The notes under the pieces were generated by a model that saw only the letters and a program-made list of their open reading frames with translations, was not told the origin of the DNA and made no database searches. The position numbers and the translations under genes were made by a program. Positions 42,050 through 54,643 of a stretch of 64,000 nt of DNA are shown piece by piece; positions within the stretch are counted from its first letter, which is position 1, and every line of letters starts with the position of its first letter. This stretch comes from Utricularia gibba (lineage: Eukaryota > Streptophyta > Magnoliopsida > Lamiales > Lentibulariaceae): assembly GCA_002189035.1 (NCBI GenBank), contig NEEC01000008.1:2170001-2234000 (forward strand). Reading direction: 5' to 3'.

Positions 42050-43739
42050 GATATATGCTGCTTCACAAACCTGAGAACAGAACACTTGAATCATGTAATC
42101 ATCACATCTAGATTCATTCACAATACTATGCAATGCACCACACGGATATAATAATTTGATACCATAAGCAGCTGCAGCAATCAGAAAAAAACAAAAACAA
42201 AAAGAAGTCACATAATTATCATCTACATTGAGAAAATACTTAAACGTGTGGGATGAGTTTTGCCAACAAATACTCAACGTCAGAACCAGTTTTTATAATT
42301 GGTAAGGCCTAGTCGTCTCCCCAAAGAGTGTTATTGATTGGAGATGCCACCGAACTAAGTACCTAACGTTGATGATATTAAAGGTGAAAGCATGAAGTAG
42401 ACAGATAAACAACACGTCAATTCATCGCAAGCCATACACATCTGCTAAGCAGATTCACAGGAAGGCGCAGAAAGGGTTAACGATAAGTAGGATGCCCCAA
42501 CGCAGAAAGGAAACCTGCCCATGTCCCAGAACAAATTCAGGGGAAGGGAACCCTCAATCCGAAATTCCCATTTTCATTCAAGAATTCAAAACACGAGGGC
42601 GCATACCAAAAATTAGGACGAATCCGCTGACACCCCTCCAATCCTCCAACAAATAACAAAGCTAAATCGTCCCCAACACAAAGCAGACGCTTAAACACAT
42701 GGAAGGCGAAAATATCTGGGAAGTGGGTATCCTTTAAAGGGAAGGCGCCTGAACCCCCTGCAACAGCTCTATGCCGGAAATATTGAATGCAGAGAAGGAT
42801 GAAGCTGGGAAGCAGATAGAGAGATGTGTTTGTTTTTTCTCTGGTTATCGAAAGGGGAGAAAACGAGGGGGATTTGGAGTATTTGGATGGTGGTGATTCT
42901 GGATCAGCACGTACAGAAAGTCTATGGGCTCTGGGGCCCACCATCATTATCTATACCTAAATATTTTATTTTTTAATCACCATTAATTCATTTTTAATTC
43001 TTCATATAATATACAATTCCCCAGGTTGGCGTTGTTTCCTGACTTTTCACCACTTCCTTTATAAATACAAATATAATAATACAATTACATTTTTGTTACC
43101 CACAATTAAAATAATATTATACTAACATATAAATGATCAATTTGTATATAAAATAAATATTTTTAAATGAAATCAATTTTTATCTCTTTTTTTTTTTTGA
43201 AATTATCATATTTTATTCTTTTATTTCTTTTAAATTATTAAAGTTGATGGACTGATTCCCCATTTCATTTTACTAAATTGTACGGTAAACCCATTGTTTG
43301 GATAGATGGGCTTCTGGCCCGTGGGGGAGCCCGAGCGGACTCCTGATCGCCGTTCGTTCTTCCCCGGGGATTTGATGATATTTGGGTGCGATTCGTTTCT
43401 GTGTTTTGTTCTCTCTGAGGACTGTATGGGTTTCCGGGTGTCATTTGTTGATGCTGTCGATCGTGGGTTTTAGGTTAAGTTTGTTGATTTTTGGGGTTGT
43501 GGATGATTTCTGTTGGTAGAGTCTTCATTGTGGAACTTGATCCGTTAAGTGGTGATTGCTGGCTCTTCGGCCAAGTTTGTTTCTTGCTGGTGATTATTCA
43601 TTTAATGATGATGGTTGGGTTTGATCAGGGATTCGAGGTTTTGACGTCTTTATGTGAAGAACTACATTGATAATCTCCTGCGTTTTCTTGACGGAATAAG
43701 ATCTCGTGTGGCCCAGAGTGAACGCCATTGCCATAATGT
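42050..43739. other. Divergent region between RMA gene and DUF1421 relic
   Basis: RMA 5'UTR, with a likely 5'UTR intron and first exon near 42780-42940. The 136-codon minus-strand frame at 42537-42947 lies in that leader and has no protein character. AT-rich spacer 42950-43290. From 43300 to 43740 a transcribed-looking leader precedes the DUF1421 relic. Confidence 0.45.
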
Positions 43740-44850
43740 TGATATATCGGTGAAAATTGTTCAGAGTTGAGTCAAGATCCGAGGAATCACAGGGGAAGCT
43801 GAATTTCCTGGAAAAGTGTATGCAAGAGGCATCCTCTGGTTCTTCTGTTGTTTCAAATGCAGGTTCACAGGTCTGTCGAGATCCTAAGAGATAAGAAAGA
43901 GTTGCTCACTATCCAAGCTTCAACTTGCTCTGGAGGAAAGTTCCTCATCTGGTAAAACTCTGGATGATGATAGAATTTTGGTCTCTTTCGAATCTGAAAA
44001 GCCTGAAATCTCTCAAGATTCACATGGGAAGAAACCGGCACCGGTACACTATCAGGCGGCAGTACCACGATCAGTCCCTCGGTCAGACCACCTGATGTCC
44101 AGCACTCGTCTACACGAGACCCTTCATCTCTGCCTCCACCTTTTATGGCAGACGGACAAGTGTACTACATGCCTCCACCGCCAGTGATCCCTTCATACCA
44201 ATCTGAGGCTCAGTACCGACCAAGCCAACCCCATGTTCAAGAGATGACTGGGATTTCCAGTTCCCCGGCACAATCTCGAATGAATCCAAACCCCCAGATT
44301 CAATCAGGGGCTCCATGTCAGACAGTGGCCCCAGCATCTTCAACAATCTCAGCATCCCACCATGGAAACAAAGATCAGAACTTGGTCTCAACATATGTAT
44401 CCTTCATATATGCCTACTCCTAGCAGCATGTCAATGCAGCCTGGTGCATCACAGCCAGGCTTTGCTGCCTCTGAAACGTCGTCCAATGCAACAACTGCCT
44501 CAGGAGCAGCAATTCAAGGCTCGGTATGGTTCACAATCTGGAGATGGATGTATGGCTGGGGGTTGGGGCACACCGCTCTATGCTTCAAGGTAGAAATCCC
44601 TACGAGAGCTTTAACAGCGACGGAGGAGTAAGGCGCAATGGATCACCAGCTCAGCATCTGCAAGGTTCTTTTCCTCCACCATGTTTCCCTCCACAGAACA
44701 TGCCCTCTTGATGCAGCCATCCATATAGCGAGCTAATTGAGAAGCTTGTGGGCATGCGGATATGGCGGTGATCGTGTCCTTGGTCAGGCCAACCGAATTC
44801 AACTTGGTGCTCCGCATGCTGAACGATTGGGGTTCTTCTCATAGAAGCTG
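43740..44850 (+). pseudogene. DUF1421 (FLOE-like) gene relic
   Basis: Pieces of one protein appear in order but in changing frames: VHRSVEILRDKKEL (43863), KLQLALEESSSSGKTLDDD (about 43912), a long Pro/Gln/Ser-rich region (ADGQVYYMPPPPVIPSYQ, YPSYMPTPSSMSMQPGASQ), NPYESFNSDGG, and the DUF1421 core HPYSELIEKLVGM (about 44715-44755), then GYGGDRV after a one-base insertion and a degraded NFNLVLRMLND. DUF1421 proteins include FLOE1, a seed water-potential sensor that forms condensates. An in-frame TGA at 44709-44711 sits just before the core, several shifts are not in homopolymers, and the conserved N-terminus (DDILCSYDDY type) was not found upstream. I therefore call it a decayed copy, though sequence error may add to it. 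Confidence 0.7.
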
Positions 44851-45404
44851 GCCTAGCTAGGGGAAGATTCGCAAGTCTTTCCACCATTGTGATGCTGCCT
44901 CAGGATTCTGCATTAGCTCCTGATCTATACCCCTGATGGTGCTGCTGAAGGTTGAGAACCAAAGGGCAGGCGAGGCCATTCCTTCCCTCCCACTGCATTC
45001 AATGCACCCACCCACCAAGATCTGCCGACTAGAAAATGAATAAGACAACTAGATTTTTTTTTCTCTTGTATTTATCTCCATCTTTCTTTTCTTTTCTTAT
45101 TCTGCATTTCTGTGAATACAAAGTCTTCTAAGAAAATGTAATTTAATCGGTTTGTCAAGAAAATCAAAATAAAATATATTCATCCACTCAAATAATAGTG
45201 CTGATAATTATAAGAATAAAACAAGGAAAAAGAAAAACGGTCCCTCTTATCTTCTCTATATACTGTAATTAAAGATTGCAGACTTCCGTTGGTCTAGTTC
45301 GTTCATTCACTCAGAATCACTCCACGGAGCTCTTCTGCATTGGAGGCAATCCAGAGAAGTGTGTGACGTAAAAGGGGAATACACTTGGACGGTGTGGAGT
45401 GGAG
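44851..45404. other. TPC1 upstream region
   Basis: End of the DUF1421 relic, then AT-rich promoter and leader of TPC1. A CTCTATATA TATA-like element lies near 45255. No other gene. Confidence 0.45.
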
Positions 45405-48400
45405 ATGGATGTGCCATTACTGGGTCGTGATCGTGTCACTAGGGATGGCACGCGCGTTGTTATTACTAGTGTTTTCGGTCTACGGTCATCTGCTATTGCC
45501 CACGGATCACCATACCAGAAGGCGGCTGCTTTGGTTGATCTCGTATGTTATCTCCGTTGTTTTTGTCTGAACTCTGATTTTGAGGCATGGGTGTAGATAG
45601 GTAGTGGGTGAAGCAAAGAGTCATCTTTGAACATATTGTCTTAGAGTCTGGTAATCTGGGGCCATACAATGCTGGAAATATGTGACTTAAGCGAAGATTC
45701 TTCATTTCAAGGTTATATAGCTTGTTAGCCTTGACAAAATCTCGCAACTCTGGTTTTTTGTGGGCGTTTTTTTTTTTTGTTTGTAACAAGCGATAGGCAA
45801 TTGTTGCTTCTATTTGCGAAAAATCATGTTCTGTGGATCTTTGAATTATCTGTAAGTTTCTTTTGAATGGTGCCGCAACGTTGCAGGCTGAAGATGGAGT
45901 AGGCATACCTGAGGAGATTCTTGACCACCCAAGATTTGCGAGCTCCTTAAATTCATACTTGTTTTTCATACAATTTGATTTCCTTTGGTCTCTCAGTTAC
46001 ATTGCACTGATTCTTCTAAACTTCTTAGAGGTATATGCATAGATTTTTTTTTACCTGTCTTTTCATCTCGTTACTTCAACTTATCTGAATTTAAAGCGTG
46101 TGTTCTATATATAAATGAATTCTTTATTTCAGAAACCTCTGTGGTGTTCGGAGGATTGCAGTGATAGGGACTACTACTTTCTTGGGCAACTTCCTTACTT
46201 GAGTGGTATTGGAAATCTCATATACGAGGTAATCTGAGAAGCTGATTTACTTCCTTGTTAAAAGTGTTCTATGAAGTATTTTAAATGTCTCCTGTAATCT
46301 GCATCTATACTTTGTACTGAAACCATCAACGGCATTAGCAGTTTATGAAGCATATGATTTTCAGCTCTCTTTCTTAGTTCACATGTTTTGCTGGATTCTT
46401 ACCATGGCCAATGTGTTTTTCAGGGAGTAGTACTTCTGATTCTCATTTTTCATACTCTTTTTCCTGTTACATATGAAGGTTTCAGTGTATTTTGGAAGAA
46501 TCACATAAATAGAATCAAGGTAAGGGTCCAACCTCCTAAAATAGACTCCCATTACTACTTTTTCAGCAGTTAGACTTGAGAAAATGAGTCTGTTTTCTCA
46601 GGTGTTAGTTTGGGTTCTGTCTGTGTTGCCTCAAATCCTCATTTACCGTACTTTTAATATGTATCTTCAGGTTCTGTTTTTTTTGCTGTTGATTGCTGAC
46701 TTAGCAGTCTATGCTGTATATCTCTCGCCAATCTCGTTCCACACACTCCCATTCCGGATTGCTCCTTATGTCCGAGTTTTTCTTTTTGCTGCCTATTTCA
46801 GGTTAGTGGGAGGCTAGTCTCTTTGAAATTTTTTTTCTTAATCTCAAGAATATCTTCAACACAGTACATGTGGAGAAATTGACTCTGGGTAATATGACCG
46901 TACATAAATTTTCAGGAATATTACCGATAGCACCAAGATACTGTTTGGAATGCTTCTCACGTATCTCAATGTTCTGGTGAGTTACTCTGACCAGTGCCCT
47001 TTGGTACCTTCCTATTACTCAACATATGTCAGGAACACAAATTTTTATGATGGGCGGCCATTTGTAGGCTTTGTGGCTGCTATTTCTTCTATTTTCCAGC
47101 TGGTTGGCATACCTTCTGTTTGAAGATACTGATCAGGGAAGGGCTATATTTACATCCTACGGGACTACACTGTACCAAATGTTCATTTTATTTACGACCT
47201 CCAACAACCCTGATGTCTGGATTCCAGCTTACAAGTTAGTTGCTTTCGGAAGGGTGCTCATTACACAGAAAATTGTATTGTAATTGCTAGCATCTGTAAA
47301 TTTTGAATCCCCTTGTAGGACCTCACGCTGGTATGCCATATTCTTCGTGCTGTATGTGCTCTTGGGAGTTTATTTTGTCACCAATTTGATCCTTGCTGTT
47401 GTATATGATAGCTTTAAGGGCGAGGTATGCTTTAAATCATCAACTGCTAACTTTCATGATAATATGACTTGAGAGCCTAGTGTTTTAATTCTTTCTGTGC
47501 TCCTTCTTGTGTTGGTCATATATGCAGCTTGTCAAGCAAGTGGCCGAGAGGGATCGTCTAAGAACAAGAATACTGAAGAGAGCCTTTCACCTGATTGACG
47601 ACAAAGTCAGCATTTATATTGCAACTTCGCATACTTTATTCTTGCTTTTTGCTAGTGAGGTCTCAATAATGCCCTGGTTGACAACGAATTTGGTTCTTTT
47701 TTTTTAGATAAATGGTTTTTTGAGCAATTAGCTTGTCATTTAGAATTGTAACTGCCTTGAGCATTCGTCTATGATAACTATGCAAAACAATACATCGTCA
47801 ATACCTGATAGTTAAACCCATTTGATATTTTCAGAACCTGAGTTACCTTGACAAAGATCAATGCATCCGGCTATTGGAAGAGCTTAACAAATACAGGTAG
47901 CACTTATTTTTCTTTGAGGTTGATTGTGAAGGCGTTTCTTATTTAATTTGATATGAGAAATCGTTTGTTTTGAACTGAGCAGGACGCTGCCAAAAATTTC
48001 ACGTGAAGATTTTGAGTTAATTTTCTATGAACTAGATGACAGCCATGATGTCAAGGTAGCTAAATGGACATGGACTTGTCCTTTTTATTCCTTATACCTT
48101 GGCCTCTGGTTTTCCGTGTGTTCAATTTTATGATCATTTTCATGAGTACATCTAAAGGAAGATTATTCTCTTCATGGAACTTTCTGTTTGATTTGTCCTT
48201 CTTGTTGGCACTTTCAGATATGTTTAGAGGAGTTTTATGATCTTTCTAATGCAATTGGACTCAAGTTCCAGAAAGAAAATTTGGTAAGCAGTCATTTTTA
48301 CAGACTTGAACATCAATTTCTGCTGAATGTCATCCAGCCTAAGAAAGCCATCTCTTCAGGCATCCTTTTTTGACAGAACCTGCCCATCTTTTTATCACTC

Positions 48401-50406
48401 CCCCATCTCTGAGAAGCTAAAAAATTTCGTACGAAGCTCCACATTTGGATACATCGTCATGTTCTGCCTAGTGATAAATTTCATTGCCGTGGTTATAGAG
48501 ACAACGGTAGGATACTGGCTCTGATCTGATTTTATTGGGATTTCCTTGTCAACTGACTGTATATTTCTATGAATTTCAGCTTGACATTGCCAACAACTCT
48601 GGTCAAGCTGCTTGGCAAGCGGTCGAATTTGTATTTGGTGAGGCTCCATACATCCTCTTTTATCACTGAATAAGTGGTCAAGATCCTTTTTTTGGGAAAT
48701 ATAAATAAAATGTCCTTCCTTTCTTTCATCAGGATGGATTTACGTCATTGAAATGGCCTTAAAAATTTATTCATATGGGTTCCTGAATTATTGGAATGAT
48801 GGGCAAAATCGTTTCGACTTCATAATAACCTGGGTTATTGGTAAGCGCCTTTGTGAAGAATGTGATTCTCAGGCCACATCAGAGATAACTTTTTCTGCGT
48901 GTTGCAGTTATTGGAGAATCAACCACTTTTCTTACCCCTAGTGGGGTCACTTTTCTTTCAAACGGAGAATGGTGAGGTTTCTTCAACTAGTATTTTCCCT
49001 GCGTTTGTTTTCTTCATCTAATTTTGCAAAGCCTGACTTTTTCTCCAAATTTAGCTTAGAATGCTTCCCAAAACAAGGTTCTGTGCCCATTTTACAATGC
49101 ATCAAGTCCAAAACGCACTAGTACTGCTAAATATGTTGTGTTTATTCATCTACTTGATATCCCTCGTCTCAGAAAGTGAAACAATATCTTTGTTGACGGG
49201 CATAGTTACTTTCTTACAATTTGCTTTACCTGGAAAAAAGAAAGGCTTTGCTATGTTTGAATCTTACCACTATTTTTTTTTTCTTTTTTGCAGGATCCGT
49301 TATCTTTTAATAGCAAGGATGCTGAGGCTGGTCAGACTATTATTGCACGTTCAACAGTATCGAGCTTTTGTTGCAACATTCTTGACACTTATTCCAAGTC
49401 TAGCACCTTATCTGGGAACCGTGTTTTGTGTCTTATGCCTTTACTGCTCTCTTGGCGTACAGGTAATACACTCCAGGCACACATTTTTTTTAGAATCCGA
49501 GGTTCCCTGCAGATTACTTGGTTTCTTATTCATTCTTTAGATCTTTGGGGGTATTGTAAATGCTGGAAATCCAGACCTCAGTGGCACCGATCTCGAAGAT
49601 AGCGAGTATCCTTTTTCCCATGAGTGCTATGCTGCATTGCTTAATGACCTTTGAGACTTTCCTCTGTTTCCTTTGACGAATGTCAGCTACCTCCTCTTCA
49701 ACTTCAATGACTATCCAAATGGAATGGTAACACTCTTCAATTTGCTAGTGATGGGAAGCTGGCAAGTCTGGATGCAGGTACACAAATTAGTTCACCTGTG
49801 TTTTGTGGGTCGATATTCGTGTAAGGTGTCTAACTAAGGTTTGAAAACTCAGAGCTACAAGGAGCTGACGGGGACTATATGGACGTATGCCTTCTTCATC
49901 AGCTTCTATCTGATTGCCGTCTTGCTGCTGTTGAACTTGGTATGCATCTCCAAAGAGCATTGTTCCTTTTAATCCAGCTCTGATCCCAGACAGAATAAGA
50001 AAACAAAACATCTCTTTTCACATTGTTTCAGATTGTGGCTTTCGTCTTGGAGGCTTTCTTCGCCGAAATGGAAATCGAATCAGCTGGTAATGGTGAAACA
50101 GAGGTCAGTCACACAGATTCAATGCATAAAAATGTAGCACACCACACTTGTGATGATAAGGTTGCCTCAAAACTGAACTTGATGCAAATCTCAGGGAACC
50201 ACAATACGGAAGCGCAAAGTTGTGGGGTACGTACACAAAACTGAACACTCTTATCTGAGATTGCAGCTCAAGCAAGAGATGTCTTACACTTAACACAACT
50301 GATGATTCACAGGACATCATCAAGGAACCAAAGGGTTGATGCGCTGCTGCATCATATGCTGAGTGCAGAGCTGAACAAATCAGGAGATGCTGCTGCTGCT
50401 CCATGA
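45405..50406 (+). CDS. TPC1: Vacuolar two-pore cation channel TPC1 (SV channel)
   Basis: Twenty-three coding exons: 45405-45542, 45887-46030, 46133-46228, 46424-46519, 46671-46801, 46916-46976, 47068-47234, 47319-47424, 47528-47605, 47835-47896, 47983-48055, 48218-48283, 48348-48506, 48580-48637, 48733-48840, 48908-48971, 49294-49462, 49541-49605, 49687-49777, 49853-49939, 50032-50103, 50195-50226, 50313-50406; 738 residues, no break. Two Shaker-like repeats: pore 1 around [18 protein letters not shown], pore 2 around [17 protein letters not shown]; second voltage sensor RMLRLVRLL. Two EF-hands lie between them: the first loop ([12 protein letters not shown]) has lost several ligands, the second (DDSHDVKICLEE) is better kept. 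TPC1 is the Ca2+- and voltage-gated vacuolar channel of systemic signalling. Luminal Ca2+-sensing residues are partly substituted (see findings). Confidence 0.95.
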
Positions 50407-50630
50407 ACAAGAGAAAGATGCACTTTGAGCTTGCTGCTCCCTCCTCTTCTGCTTTCCCTTTTCAGTCCGTTTCTGTCATCAAGTTCAGAACTTCAGCTCA
50501 AATGCCGAATCTTGCTGCTGCTCCATGGACAAGTGGAAGTTTCCCTCGAGCTTGCTCCGGTCATCTTCTTCTGCATCTCTCTGTTTCCCTCGAGCTTCAG
50601 GTCAAATGCCCAAATCTCTCTGTAGTGCTA
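50390..50630 (+). repeat. Tandem duplication spanning the TPC1 stop codon
   Basis: TGCTGCTGCTCCATG occurs at 50390 (the end of the coding region) and at 50512, an offset of about 121 bases. Parallel similarity continues (ACAAG, GAGCTTGCT, TCTTCTGC, TTCAG/GCTCAAATGCC) to about 50615. The second copy is in the 3'UTR. It could give a read-through extension but the first stop is intact. Confidence 0.65.
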
Positions 50631-50850
50631 CGTTCTTGTGTTGTATTTGTAGTAAGACGGAAATACCCTCGAGAATAAAATTATATTTGAAATTTCAAAA
50701 TTAAAAATAATCTTAAGTACAATAAATGCCATCAGTCTTGAGAAAATGAAGTGATTCAAATAGAAGGCCGAGAAGACTGGGGGGCTCTCTTGGCTTAGAA
50801 AAACCCTTGCCGTGTCTCGGTAGGCGTTTCCAGTAACACATTGCTTGTCG

Positions 50851-52202
50851 ATGGGCGCGTATCGAGCTGACGACGACTACGATTACCTGTTCAAGGTTGT
50901 GTTGATTGGCGATTCCGGCGTCGGCAAATCTAATCTTCTCTCCAGGTTCACTCGGAATGAGTTCAGCTTGGAGTCCAAGTCCACAATCGGAGTTGAGTTT
51001 GCTACGAGGAGCATTCGCGTTGATGAGAAGGTGGTGAAAGCGCAGATTTGGGACACTGCTGGTCAAGAGAGGTACGCTCGTCTTACCAGATCGTGTTCGG
51101 GGGTAAAACTTGGTTAGGTGTAATGCGTGGTTCGGTTTTCTGCTAACTTTTGGCGGTGAATCGAGATCTTCATTTCTGGTTGGGATGATAATGGGATCGC
51201 TGTCTTTAATGCTGTTTCTTGTTTGGTAGCTTTTTATATTAGACTGATTCACGTAGATCTGGGAATGCGGTGGCCCGATCTGAAATTTTTTGACGGTCGG
51301 AATGACCTGATCTGCACAGTTTGAATTGCTAGGGTTGTTCGGATCACCGATATCGTGCACATGAATTTGCCTTGCTGCTTTTCCCATGCTAGATTTGCTG
51401 CATGGTCATGATGGCCATCCCATCCCCCCTGTTGCTTGAATCAGAAAATTACACTTGTTCATATATGAGCTTCTCAATCTAGTTTCTCTAGAACCATTCT
51501 CAGCGAATGAAATTTTCGAGAATCCTAGCATCTGATATCCGTGTCAATCTGCTGTTGTTGATCTTATGCCCATTCAGTGTTCTGCTTGCTTGTTTTCTCT
51601 TCACCAGTGTTTTCTTTTCTTAAAATGTTTTCCACTCATCAATTCGTGACATGAAGCTTGCCGTGGAACAAGGGCTTCTTCAGTTTTTCTGTTCACTGTT
51701 TCCTTTGTGAAACACCCTCTGGTTTCTACCATATGCATATATCTAATCACTGATTCATTCTTTCTGAAGGTATCGTGCGATAACAAGTGCTTACTACCGA
51801 GGAGCTGTGGGTGCGTTGCTGGTCTACGATGTCACACGCCATGTTACATTCGAAAATGTGGAGAGATGGCTCAAGGAGCTCAGGGACCATACCGACTCCA
51901 ACATAGTTATCATGCTCGTGGGAAACAAAGCCGACTTGCGACACCTGCGTGCTGTTTCGACCGAAGACGCCACTGCTTTCGCCGAAAGGGAGAAGACATT
52001 TTTCATGGAAACCTCAGCCCTTGAATCAATGAACGTCGAAAATGCCTTCACCGAAGTGCTCACACAGATTCATCAGATTGTGAGTAAGAAAGCTCTCGAA
52101 GCTAGCGATGATCCCGCATCTTTACCAAAAGGGCAGACCATCAACGTTGGTTCCAAGGATGATGTCTCAGCTCTTAAGAAAGCCGGCTGCTGCTCTACTT
52201 AG
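50851..52202 (+). CDS. RABA1: Rab11-type small GTPase RABA1
   Basis: Two exons, 50851-51071 and 51770-52202, 217 residues, no break. P-loop GDSGVGKS, switch I effector region [12 protein letters not shown], switch [22 protein letters not shown], base-binding NKADL and SAL motifs, hypervariable tail and C-terminal CC prenylation motif (KKAGCCST). The intron splits the QER|Y codon, the usual place in plant RABA genes. RABA1 proteins traffic cargo from the trans-Golgi/recycling endosome to the plasma membrane and cell plate. Overall sequence is closest to my memory of the RABA1f group. The ~700 bp intron is the longest in the window. Confidence 0.95.
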
Positions 52203-52606
52203 ACACTCCATTTTTCCTGCAATGCCGCGCACCAGACTACACGGTGATGGTCTATTCTCCTTCGCTATCCATATGCTTTCATTTTGGATCCCTTGTTTGT
52301 AATGCCTGTGTTTGATTTATTTTTCTTGGTGGAAGCTGCTTATTCTAGTAGTTGCTCAACTTATCTCATCACTATGAAGCTTGCTGTGTGCTGTTTCTTC
52401 TTCCTTTTCATCAAATTGCATGACTAGAAACTTGAACCAACACATTGCACAAGCCAAGTTGCTGTTCATTACAGAATACAGACAAGGAAATGGATGCAAG
52501 GGTGGTGCCAATGTAACAACCAGAAACCATCTTCAACCAGAAGCAGTAGTCATCGTCAATCTCCTCAAACCAAATACACTAAAGTTTAGGAACGAAGAGC
52601 GTACCG
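52203..52606. other. 3' flanks of convergent genes
   Basis: 3'UTR of the Rab gene and of the minus-strand gene at 52607. Nothing else. Confidence 0.5.
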
Positions 52607-53152
52607 TCAACCACTAGAGCTAGGGCGGTTCCCACCTCCAGAAATGGGTCTTCTCTCGAACACCTCAGGCGCGAAGCCTCCAGCGCGGTGAATCGATGCC
52701 GGACGGTGTCCCCTCGGCTCCGGCTTGCGGCCGATTTCGATGCCCTTGGTGGGCTTCTCCTCCCTGGGTACGAACCCCGGCCTCAGATGCGGCGGAACGA
52801 AGCGGTCGGACTTGACGGGAGACGGATTGATCGCGGGGATGGAAATCGGAGGATTTAGGGGAACAGGATCGGGATCCGAAAGCGGCGGTTTCGGTTGGTT
52901 CGGGGAGGAGGCAGATGAAAGAGGAGGAAACTTGTCTCTGGTTTCCGGATTGTTCTGGGCGGAGGGCGATTTGGGAGCTGGACGGCTCAAAACGAGCATG
53001 TTTCCATGGATTCTGGAGTTGGAGAGAAGGGTTTTAGTCTGATTGGGGAAGGATTTGGGTGCGGCGATGGGACTGGTTGCGCCCTCGTTGCTCAGCTTTT
53101 TCTCGAAGATTCCATTGAAGTTGAGAGGGGTGTACTTGTTGCTTCTTGCCAT
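52607..53152 (-). CDS. Uncharacterised proline/arginine-rich plant protein
   Basis: One exon, 181 residues from the ATG at 53152 (MARSNKYTPLNFNGIFEKKL). The frame is open further upstream, but that part is a translated (CGG)n microsatellite and poly-Arg, so it is 5'UTR. The protein is Pro/Ser-rich with basic patches (SDRFVPPHLRPGFVPREEKP) and a Gly/Ser tail; no membrane segment or known domain. The conserved-looking N-terminal 20 residues and the VPPHLRPG motif suggest a real, probably intrinsically disordered protein. No function can be given. Confidence 0.6.
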   Translation of the reverse strand: MARSNKYTPLNFNGIFEKKLSNEGATSPIAAPKSFPNQTKTLLSNSRIHGNMLVLSRPAPKSPSAQNNPETRDKFPPLSSASSPNQPKPPLSDPDPVPLNPPISIPAINPSPVKSDRFVPPHLRPGFVPREEKPTKGIEIGRKPEPRGHRPASIHRAGGFAPEVFERRPISGGGNRPSSSG

Positions 53153-54150
53153 CCACCTGCTTCTCCTCCTCCGTCGCCGCCGCCGCCGCCGCCTGTATAA
53201 TTCTTCTTCTCGGGGGGAGGGGAGGCGCCGAGCTCTCTTACCACTTGTTTTCCCCTTTTTAGCCCGGGTTTGTATTTTTGTGCCTGCCTCCAATCCAATC
53301 AGGACGCGCCACGCTCCTAGCCACGTTGAAGATCTATTCTATATTACTAGCGATCGAATTTAATATTACTACAAAAATTAAAATTGTATTTTGTTTGTTT
53401 GGTGTGATCCTTTTCATTTAATCCACATTTTAAAGATTTCTCTTTAAAAATGCATTATTCTTGTTACATTAATTTTCAGATTGGTAAGCAAAATGTCACT
53501 CCTCAGTTCTCCCTTTATTTGAAATTTTAAAAGAAATGTCTTGAAAATGAGAATAATTATTTTGAAAAAATATATAATAAATTTAAAAGTCAAAAAGTTA
53601 GGCTCAAATTATTATGTACATGCTTACATGGCACAGCTAGCAACTGCATCATTTTCCTCTATTACCTAATACCACTTTGACCTTTTTTTGCATTATTTGT
53701 TATTTTTAAAAGGGATTATTTATAGATAAAAAAATGTTTTGATAGAATATTATAATAATAATAATGTAGTTAAAAAAATATGTAATTATTTTATAAATTA
53801 ATTGAATATAATACAAACACACAATTCCTCGTACATAGTAAAACCAACAATGTAATTCAAACATTTTAGATGTACGATTGTTTTACTTGGTATTCTTTTC
53901 AAGCATTTCTCTGTGGGATTGTTTTACTTGGAGCATTCCTCTGATTCGTTTGTATGCATCTTTAAACTCTGATGTGCTTTCCCAGTGGTGTGCACGAGCA
54001 TGGAGTGTGACATAACCACAGACCAGAAAGAGCATCATGTTGGGCCACCATCGAGGAATATGATGTGCAGAGGGCAAATTCAGTTGATCAGAAACTGAGG
54101 TCAGGGATGCCGATCAGCTCCCCTGCATCTGCTCTCGCATTAAACATGGG
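53153..54150. other. Intergenic with (CGC)n microsatellite
   Basis: Contains a CGC triplet repeat at 53172-53193, then AT-rich sequence to about 53870. On the minus strand 54077-53883 reads HHWESTSEFKDAYKRIRGML to a stop, which looks like a terminal helix-rich exon, but no upstream exon was found. Confidence 0.4.
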
Positions 54151-54468
54151 GTGGTATCAGTTATGACAGACAACATTCCTCTTCGTGTTGCAGCCTGTTT
54201 TTCAGAACCCCATGAACGCCCGAGCTGCGAGGGAATCCTGACTCGCTTGTTGGACTGTGAATTAGCACTTCGCGTACAGGAAAACCAACACAGGGTCTCA
54301 TTTCTTGTACATGGGAAATTTGATATCTACTCCCTCGTACATGTAATTGATTCTCATGATGAGAAACACAAAGCTTTACATTTCATGACCCGCTCGTCTC
54401 TTGGGAAGGCCTGGGGTGCTCCTGTAGCTAAAACATTTGAGACATATTGGGGATTGGTCATTCATTAG
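54151..54468 (+). other. Orphan open frame, possible kinase-tail relic
   Basis: A 105-codon frame on the plus strand. The part LRVAACFSEPHERPSCEGIL followed by TRLLDCELAL resembles subdomain XI at the end of a protein kinase domain (invariant Arg before Pro-Ser). The sequence beyond does not look like any family I know and may be intronic. No other kinase exon lies upstream, so a truncated relic is the most likely reading. Confidence 0.25.
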
Positions 54469-54643
54469 CCATCTGAAGCAAGGTTTATTGATGCATGCTC
54501 ATCTCATTGGATACCTTTTTTTGCTTCAGATAATTAAATAGCGCAGAAAATTCAAAGTGCTTTCCCCTGTTTCCGCAGATCACGGACGCTTCTCTCGGCC
54601 TCAATGAAGTCTTGGGGAGGGTCTTGAGGCATCACTTGTGGTG

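Follow-up and report, generated by a model that had tools for sequence, protein, structure and literature searches.

The TPC1 channel gene of Utricularia gibba: substituted luminal calcium-sensor residues and a predicted partial loss of calcium block

The question

TPC1, the slow vacuolar (SV) channel, is encoded in the window, a stretch of 64,000 nucleotides of Utricularia gibba DNA. Several acidic residues implicated in luminal Ca2+ sensing are replaced in this bladderwort channel, and an earlier note on the same DNA proposed that it may therefore open more easily. Does it? The explanation that fits best as a whole, to which we give a probability of about 0.55, is a TPC1/SV channel in which the luminal Ca2+ block would be somewhat reduced and not abolished.

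The TPC1 gene and its product

The TPC1 gene extends from start to stop codon over 45405..50406 (+) and consists of 23 exons coding for a product of 734 amino acids. The exon model was built by hand on GT-AG borders after reading 43000..54500, with exon 22 ending at 50226, and the joined exons form a single uninterrupted open frame. The product aligns from end to end (residues 1 to 727, 1040.9 bits) with the sequence of the Arabidopsis AtTPC1 structure (PDB 5e1j), and 454 of the 720 aligned residues, 63%, are identical, close enough to solved structures for the fold to be known from them. The Ion_trans profile (PF00520) matches two stretches of the predicted chain with 190.6 bits, corresponding to the two six-helix repeats. 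In the alignment the repeat II voltage sensor retains R531, R537, R540 and R543, and filter I is unchanged. Judged from its sequence, this is an ordinary intact TPC1 channel gene of bladderwort, and the full-length alignment bears out the gene identity, residue numbering and residue assignments of the earlier note.

No second TPC1 copy was found in the whole assembly (100.09 Mb in 516 contigs; the genome is ~100 Mb, PMC8333044), where the gene matched its own exons plus one weak match on another contig (26% identity, E 0.66). A collection of bacterial and archaeal genomes together with viral contigs gave no confirmed relative of plant TPC1.

Intron 18 (49606..49686, +) divides the codon of D607, one of the luminal sensor residues. 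Its donor, GTATCCTTT, agrees with the U12-type consensus in the form that starts with G (consensus from PMC6259924), and a branch-like TCCTTTGAC lies ~10 nt upstream of the acceptor, where there is no long pyrimidine tract. About 1.6 copies of the GTATCCTTT 9-mer are expected per window by chance, and it is the exact placement at the donor, rather than the occurrence of the 9-mer as such, that makes the intron look U12-type. A second exact GTATCCTTT at 42727-42735 (+) is tied to no intron; the number in the window is about that expected by chance. In the voltage-gated Na+ and Ca2+ channels of animals a U12 intron lies elsewhere, in segment 1 of domain I (PMC6259924). A splicing mistake as the source of the odd letters at the pore mouth was considered and rejected: no other GT lies close to the end of exon 18, this donor carries the complete U12 consensus, and after splicing the frame realigns without a gap.

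The luminal Ca2+ sensor residues

Residue numbers are those of AtTPC1 (sequence of PDB 5e1j), and the alignment is gap-free at the sensor sites. Luminal site 1 (D240, D454, E528) is complete. D454 corresponds to D457 of the bladderwort channel and E528 to E531 (48967..48969, +). E239 and D240, which belong to sites 1 and 2, are also retained; the earlier note had said so of these two and of E528, but the codons of E239/D240, at 47122-47127 (+), lie outside its range of 48506-49690. In site 2, E239 and D240 are accompanied by a changed E457, which is N460 (codon AAC, 48592-48594), and the adjacent E456 is A459 (codon GCC, 48589-48591); the stretch from D454 to E457 occupies 48583..48594 (+). 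The retained D454 and the replacement of E456 and E457 by Ala and Asn had been read correctly by eye, and hold in the spliced frame.

At the pore mouth, site 3 is rearranged. The exon 18 part of this segment (49595..49605, +) takes in two bases of the D607 codon, whose third base is at 49687, and the spliced frame reads TDLEDS(D)YLLF. E605 is D608 (codon GAT, 49598-49600), D606 is S609 (codon AGC, 49601-49603) and D607 is retained as D610. The Asp and Ser claimed at E605 and D606 are therefore as the alignment has them. In addition A604, which had escaped the earlier reading, is Glu. Positions 604-607 are thus EDSD here vs AEDD in AtTPC1, with three acids in each, equal net charge and equal loop length. 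Positions 456, 457 and 606 are neutral, Asp at 605 is still acidic, and the acid at 604 is new.

Across sites 1-3, 6 of the 8 AtTPC1 acids are still acidic (75%), compared with 53 of 83 (64%) for all AtTPC1 acids. A sensor-specific loss of acids, also considered, was rejected on the same counts, 2 of 8 being lost at the sensors vs 30 of 83 overall. The substitutions are real, yet as far as the alignment goes they are not concentrated in the Ca2+ sensors.

They are also of a kind of natural variation already published for legumes, rice and barley. Asn or Gln is found at 456/457 in 11 of the 14 Fabaceae TPC1s examined, all but one of these 11 having in addition one or two neutral site 3 residues; position 606 is neutral in 2 of 12 Brassicaceae, and rice and barley TPC1 have the same triple state as bean (PMC10665017).

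Predicted consequences for gating

Neutral residues at sensor positions can lower luminal Ca2+ sensitivity, and this part of the earlier proposal stands. Where such sites are neutral, as in channels of bean, Lotus, rice and barley, Ca2+ sensitivity is lower or appears to be so (PMC10665017). The further step to easier opening is a weak one, since site 1 is intact and E605D is still acidic. First, the site altered in fou2 (D240/D454/E528) is here unaffected. Second, AtTPC1 needs both E605A and D606N, a double mutant that suffices for VfTPC1-like gating (PMC10665017), while in the bladderwort channel 605 is acidic and 604 has gained an acid. Third, E457N adds nothing on top of E605A/D606N, and E457N/Q alone is reported to make activation harder, lowering Ca2+ sensitivity yet shifting activation to more positive voltages (PMC10665017). 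Finally, reverse mutation of VfTPC1, in which the acids were put back, did not regain Arabidopsis-like gating (PMC10665017), so the sensor residues by themselves do not predict gating from one species to another. As read from these residues, "may open more easily" lacks good support, and there appears to be no good reason yet to call the channel hyperactive.

A bean-like hyperexcitable channel appears rather unlikely on this evidence. In this reading the missing acids at 606 and 457, together with E637Q, would cut the link between luminal Ca2+ and gating, and opening would occur close to the resting voltage of the vacuole. The retained acid at 605, the one gained at 604, the intact site 1 and the opposite shift caused by E457N/Q alone all speak against it, as does the reverse mutation of VfTPC1. 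It draws its strength from the neutral 457 and 606, which match two of the three Vicia positions and would count against a merely partial effect, and from the reduced sensitivity of the bean, Lotus, rice and barley channels. D606S alone could matter too, because D606 sits at the E605 position in the fou2 structure (PMC10665017).

The equal charge and loop length at 604-607 suggest the opposite idea, that A604E with D606S shifts the acids of site 3 by a single position, leaving the charge ring intact and gating AtTPC1-like. The motif is very flexible according to molecular dynamics (MD) work (PMC10665017), which would favour such tolerance. This is nevertheless unlikely: E457N alone cuts Ca2+ sensitivity in AtTPC1, and the exact positions of the acids may be important, E605 being a metal ligand on the symmetry axis (PMC10665017).

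From the gene identity, frame and residues given above we infer the gating, and a modest cut in the luminal Ca2+ block is the most that would be predicted: of the critical change at site 3 only half is present, the replacement at 605 is conservative, the acid at 604 may compensate, and the fou2 site is intact. In the preferred explanation, that of a partly reduced block, the protein would be a dimeric cation channel of the vacuole that opens on depolarisation of the vacuole and on cytosolic Ca2+. Site 1 of VSD2 (D240/D454/E528) is intact, and through it luminal Ca2+ probably still inhibits the channel, while site 2 would be weakened by E457N and site 3 would act in its rearranged form (E604-D605-S606-D607 for A-E-D-D) with three acids retained. 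The expected block would lie within the natural range between Arabidopsis and other plants and would not be fou2-like. Conservation of the S10 gating arginines, filter I and site 1 agrees with this explanation. A literature search found no electrophysiological recording of bladderwort TPC1.

Filter II and the EF-hands

Three further changes, less expected than those in the sensors, lie elsewhere in the channel. Filter II reads VMGSW vs VMGNW in AtTPC1, a replacement of N631 by Ser (49757..49759, +) that the earlier note did not list. Asn is present at this position in all the TPCs compared, AtTPC1, mouse TPC1 and human TPC2. It has been described as forming the constriction of the pore and governing selectivity (PMC8370997). 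At the luminal entrance of the filter E637 is Gln (49775..49777, +), again unlisted before. In the tobacco orthologue, too, 457 is Asn and 637 is Gln, and both states would then predate Utricularia. In simulations D269 and E637 form a Ca2+ site beside the filter, and 637 varies between D, E and Q in plants (PMC8508871). E637Q may weaken that site, a point against a purely modest effect on Ca2+ block.

N631S at the constriction and E637Q could alter conductance or selectivity, so that permeation, more than Ca2+ sensing, would be what has changed, if anything has. The role of Asn631 at the constriction points this way, and D269A-E637A lowered ion flux in simulations (PMC8508871). Against this, Gln at 637 is natural in other plants, and the Na+-selective AtTPC1 mutant 5tua (VVNNW) retains Asn631 and alters the two residues that precede it; therefore Asn631 itself was not swapped in the Na+-selectivity experiment. 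Ser631 may also occur in plants outside those compared. A literature search covering N631 of TPC1, and the Utricularia channel, gave nothing useful, with no N631S measurement found. A change mainly in permeation is on balance doubtful.

The third change is in EF-hand 1, in exons 9-10 (47528..47896, +), where the loop is degenerate and most ligands are lost (D337K, N339L, G340S, E341Y), while EF-hand 2 retains D376, D377, D380 and E387. The EF-hand profile PF13499 matches more weakly here (22.2 bits) than in AtTPC1 (28.7 bits), both scores being below the 30-bit cut-off. In a review EF-hand 1 is called structural and EF-hand 2 particularly important for activation (PMC13114498).

Significance

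Taken on sequence alone, the channel appears as a case of ordinary divergence at positions known to vary. If luminal sensing does differ, an aquatic carnivorous asterid would join those natural variants of TPC1 for which a tuning of vacuolar excitability to habitat has been proposed. N631S would then amount to a natural experiment, since the TPCs compared, from plant, mouse and human, all retain this residue. It is far less probable than any of the alternatives above that N631S, E637Q, the reordered pore-mouth acids and the degenerate EF-hand 1 jointly alter permeation and Ca2+ control, tuning vacuolar excitability to suction-trapping carnivory; Ser631 was found described for no other TPC.

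Neighbouring genes and mitochondrial cox1

Just upstream of TPC1, at ~43600-45050 (+), pieces of a Pro/Gln-rich protein (SLPPPFMADGQVYYMPPPPVIPSY...) run across shifting frames. Contig C3 has a relative with 54% identity in an open frame of 361 aa, so the pieces look like a decayed gene copy. Directly downstream on the same strand, 50851-52202 (+) holds an apparently intact two-exon gene for a Rab-type small GTPase with a small_GTP domain match, the product ending in KKAGCCST.

Elsewhere in the assembly, helix 3 of mitochondrial cox1 (L006, 583-2271 (-), contig C515) reads LLLLCCSALVE with a Cys-Cys motif. Of the flowering plants studied, every Utricularia analysed and a single section of Genlisea are reported to have two contiguous cysteines there, and no others (PMC11688529). 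The cox1 open frame continues into what appears by eye to be an intron-encoded LAGLIDADG-type protein.

Comparison with known TPC1 channels

With AtTPC1 (PDB 5e1j, 5dqq) the bladderwort channel shares the VSD2 arginines, filter I, luminal site 1, D607 and the EF-hand 2 ligands at the overall identity given above. It differs by E456A, E457N, A604E, E605D, D606S, N631S, E637Q and the degenerate EF-hand 1 loop, and is longer by 6 residues near the N terminus and shorter by 4 before CxDRDYY. The fou2 form of AtTPC1 (D454N) belongs to the same channel family, but fou2-type channels are marked by loss of D240, D454 or E528, and here all three are retained, D454 unchanged. The TPC1s of Brassica rapa and Lepidium likewise have a neutral residue at the D606 position; their other sensor sites are reported as conserved (PMC10665017), whereas E456 and E457 are also changed in bladderwort. 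The Vicia faba channel VfTPC1 (PMC10665017) has in common with it Asn at the E457 position (Asn460) and a neutral residue at the D606 position. VfTPC1 has Ala at the E605 position and Glu at the E637 position where the bladderwort channel has Asp and Gln, and the VfTPC1-type neutral pair at 605 and 606 is represented here by one acidic and one neutral residue, Asp608 and Ser609.
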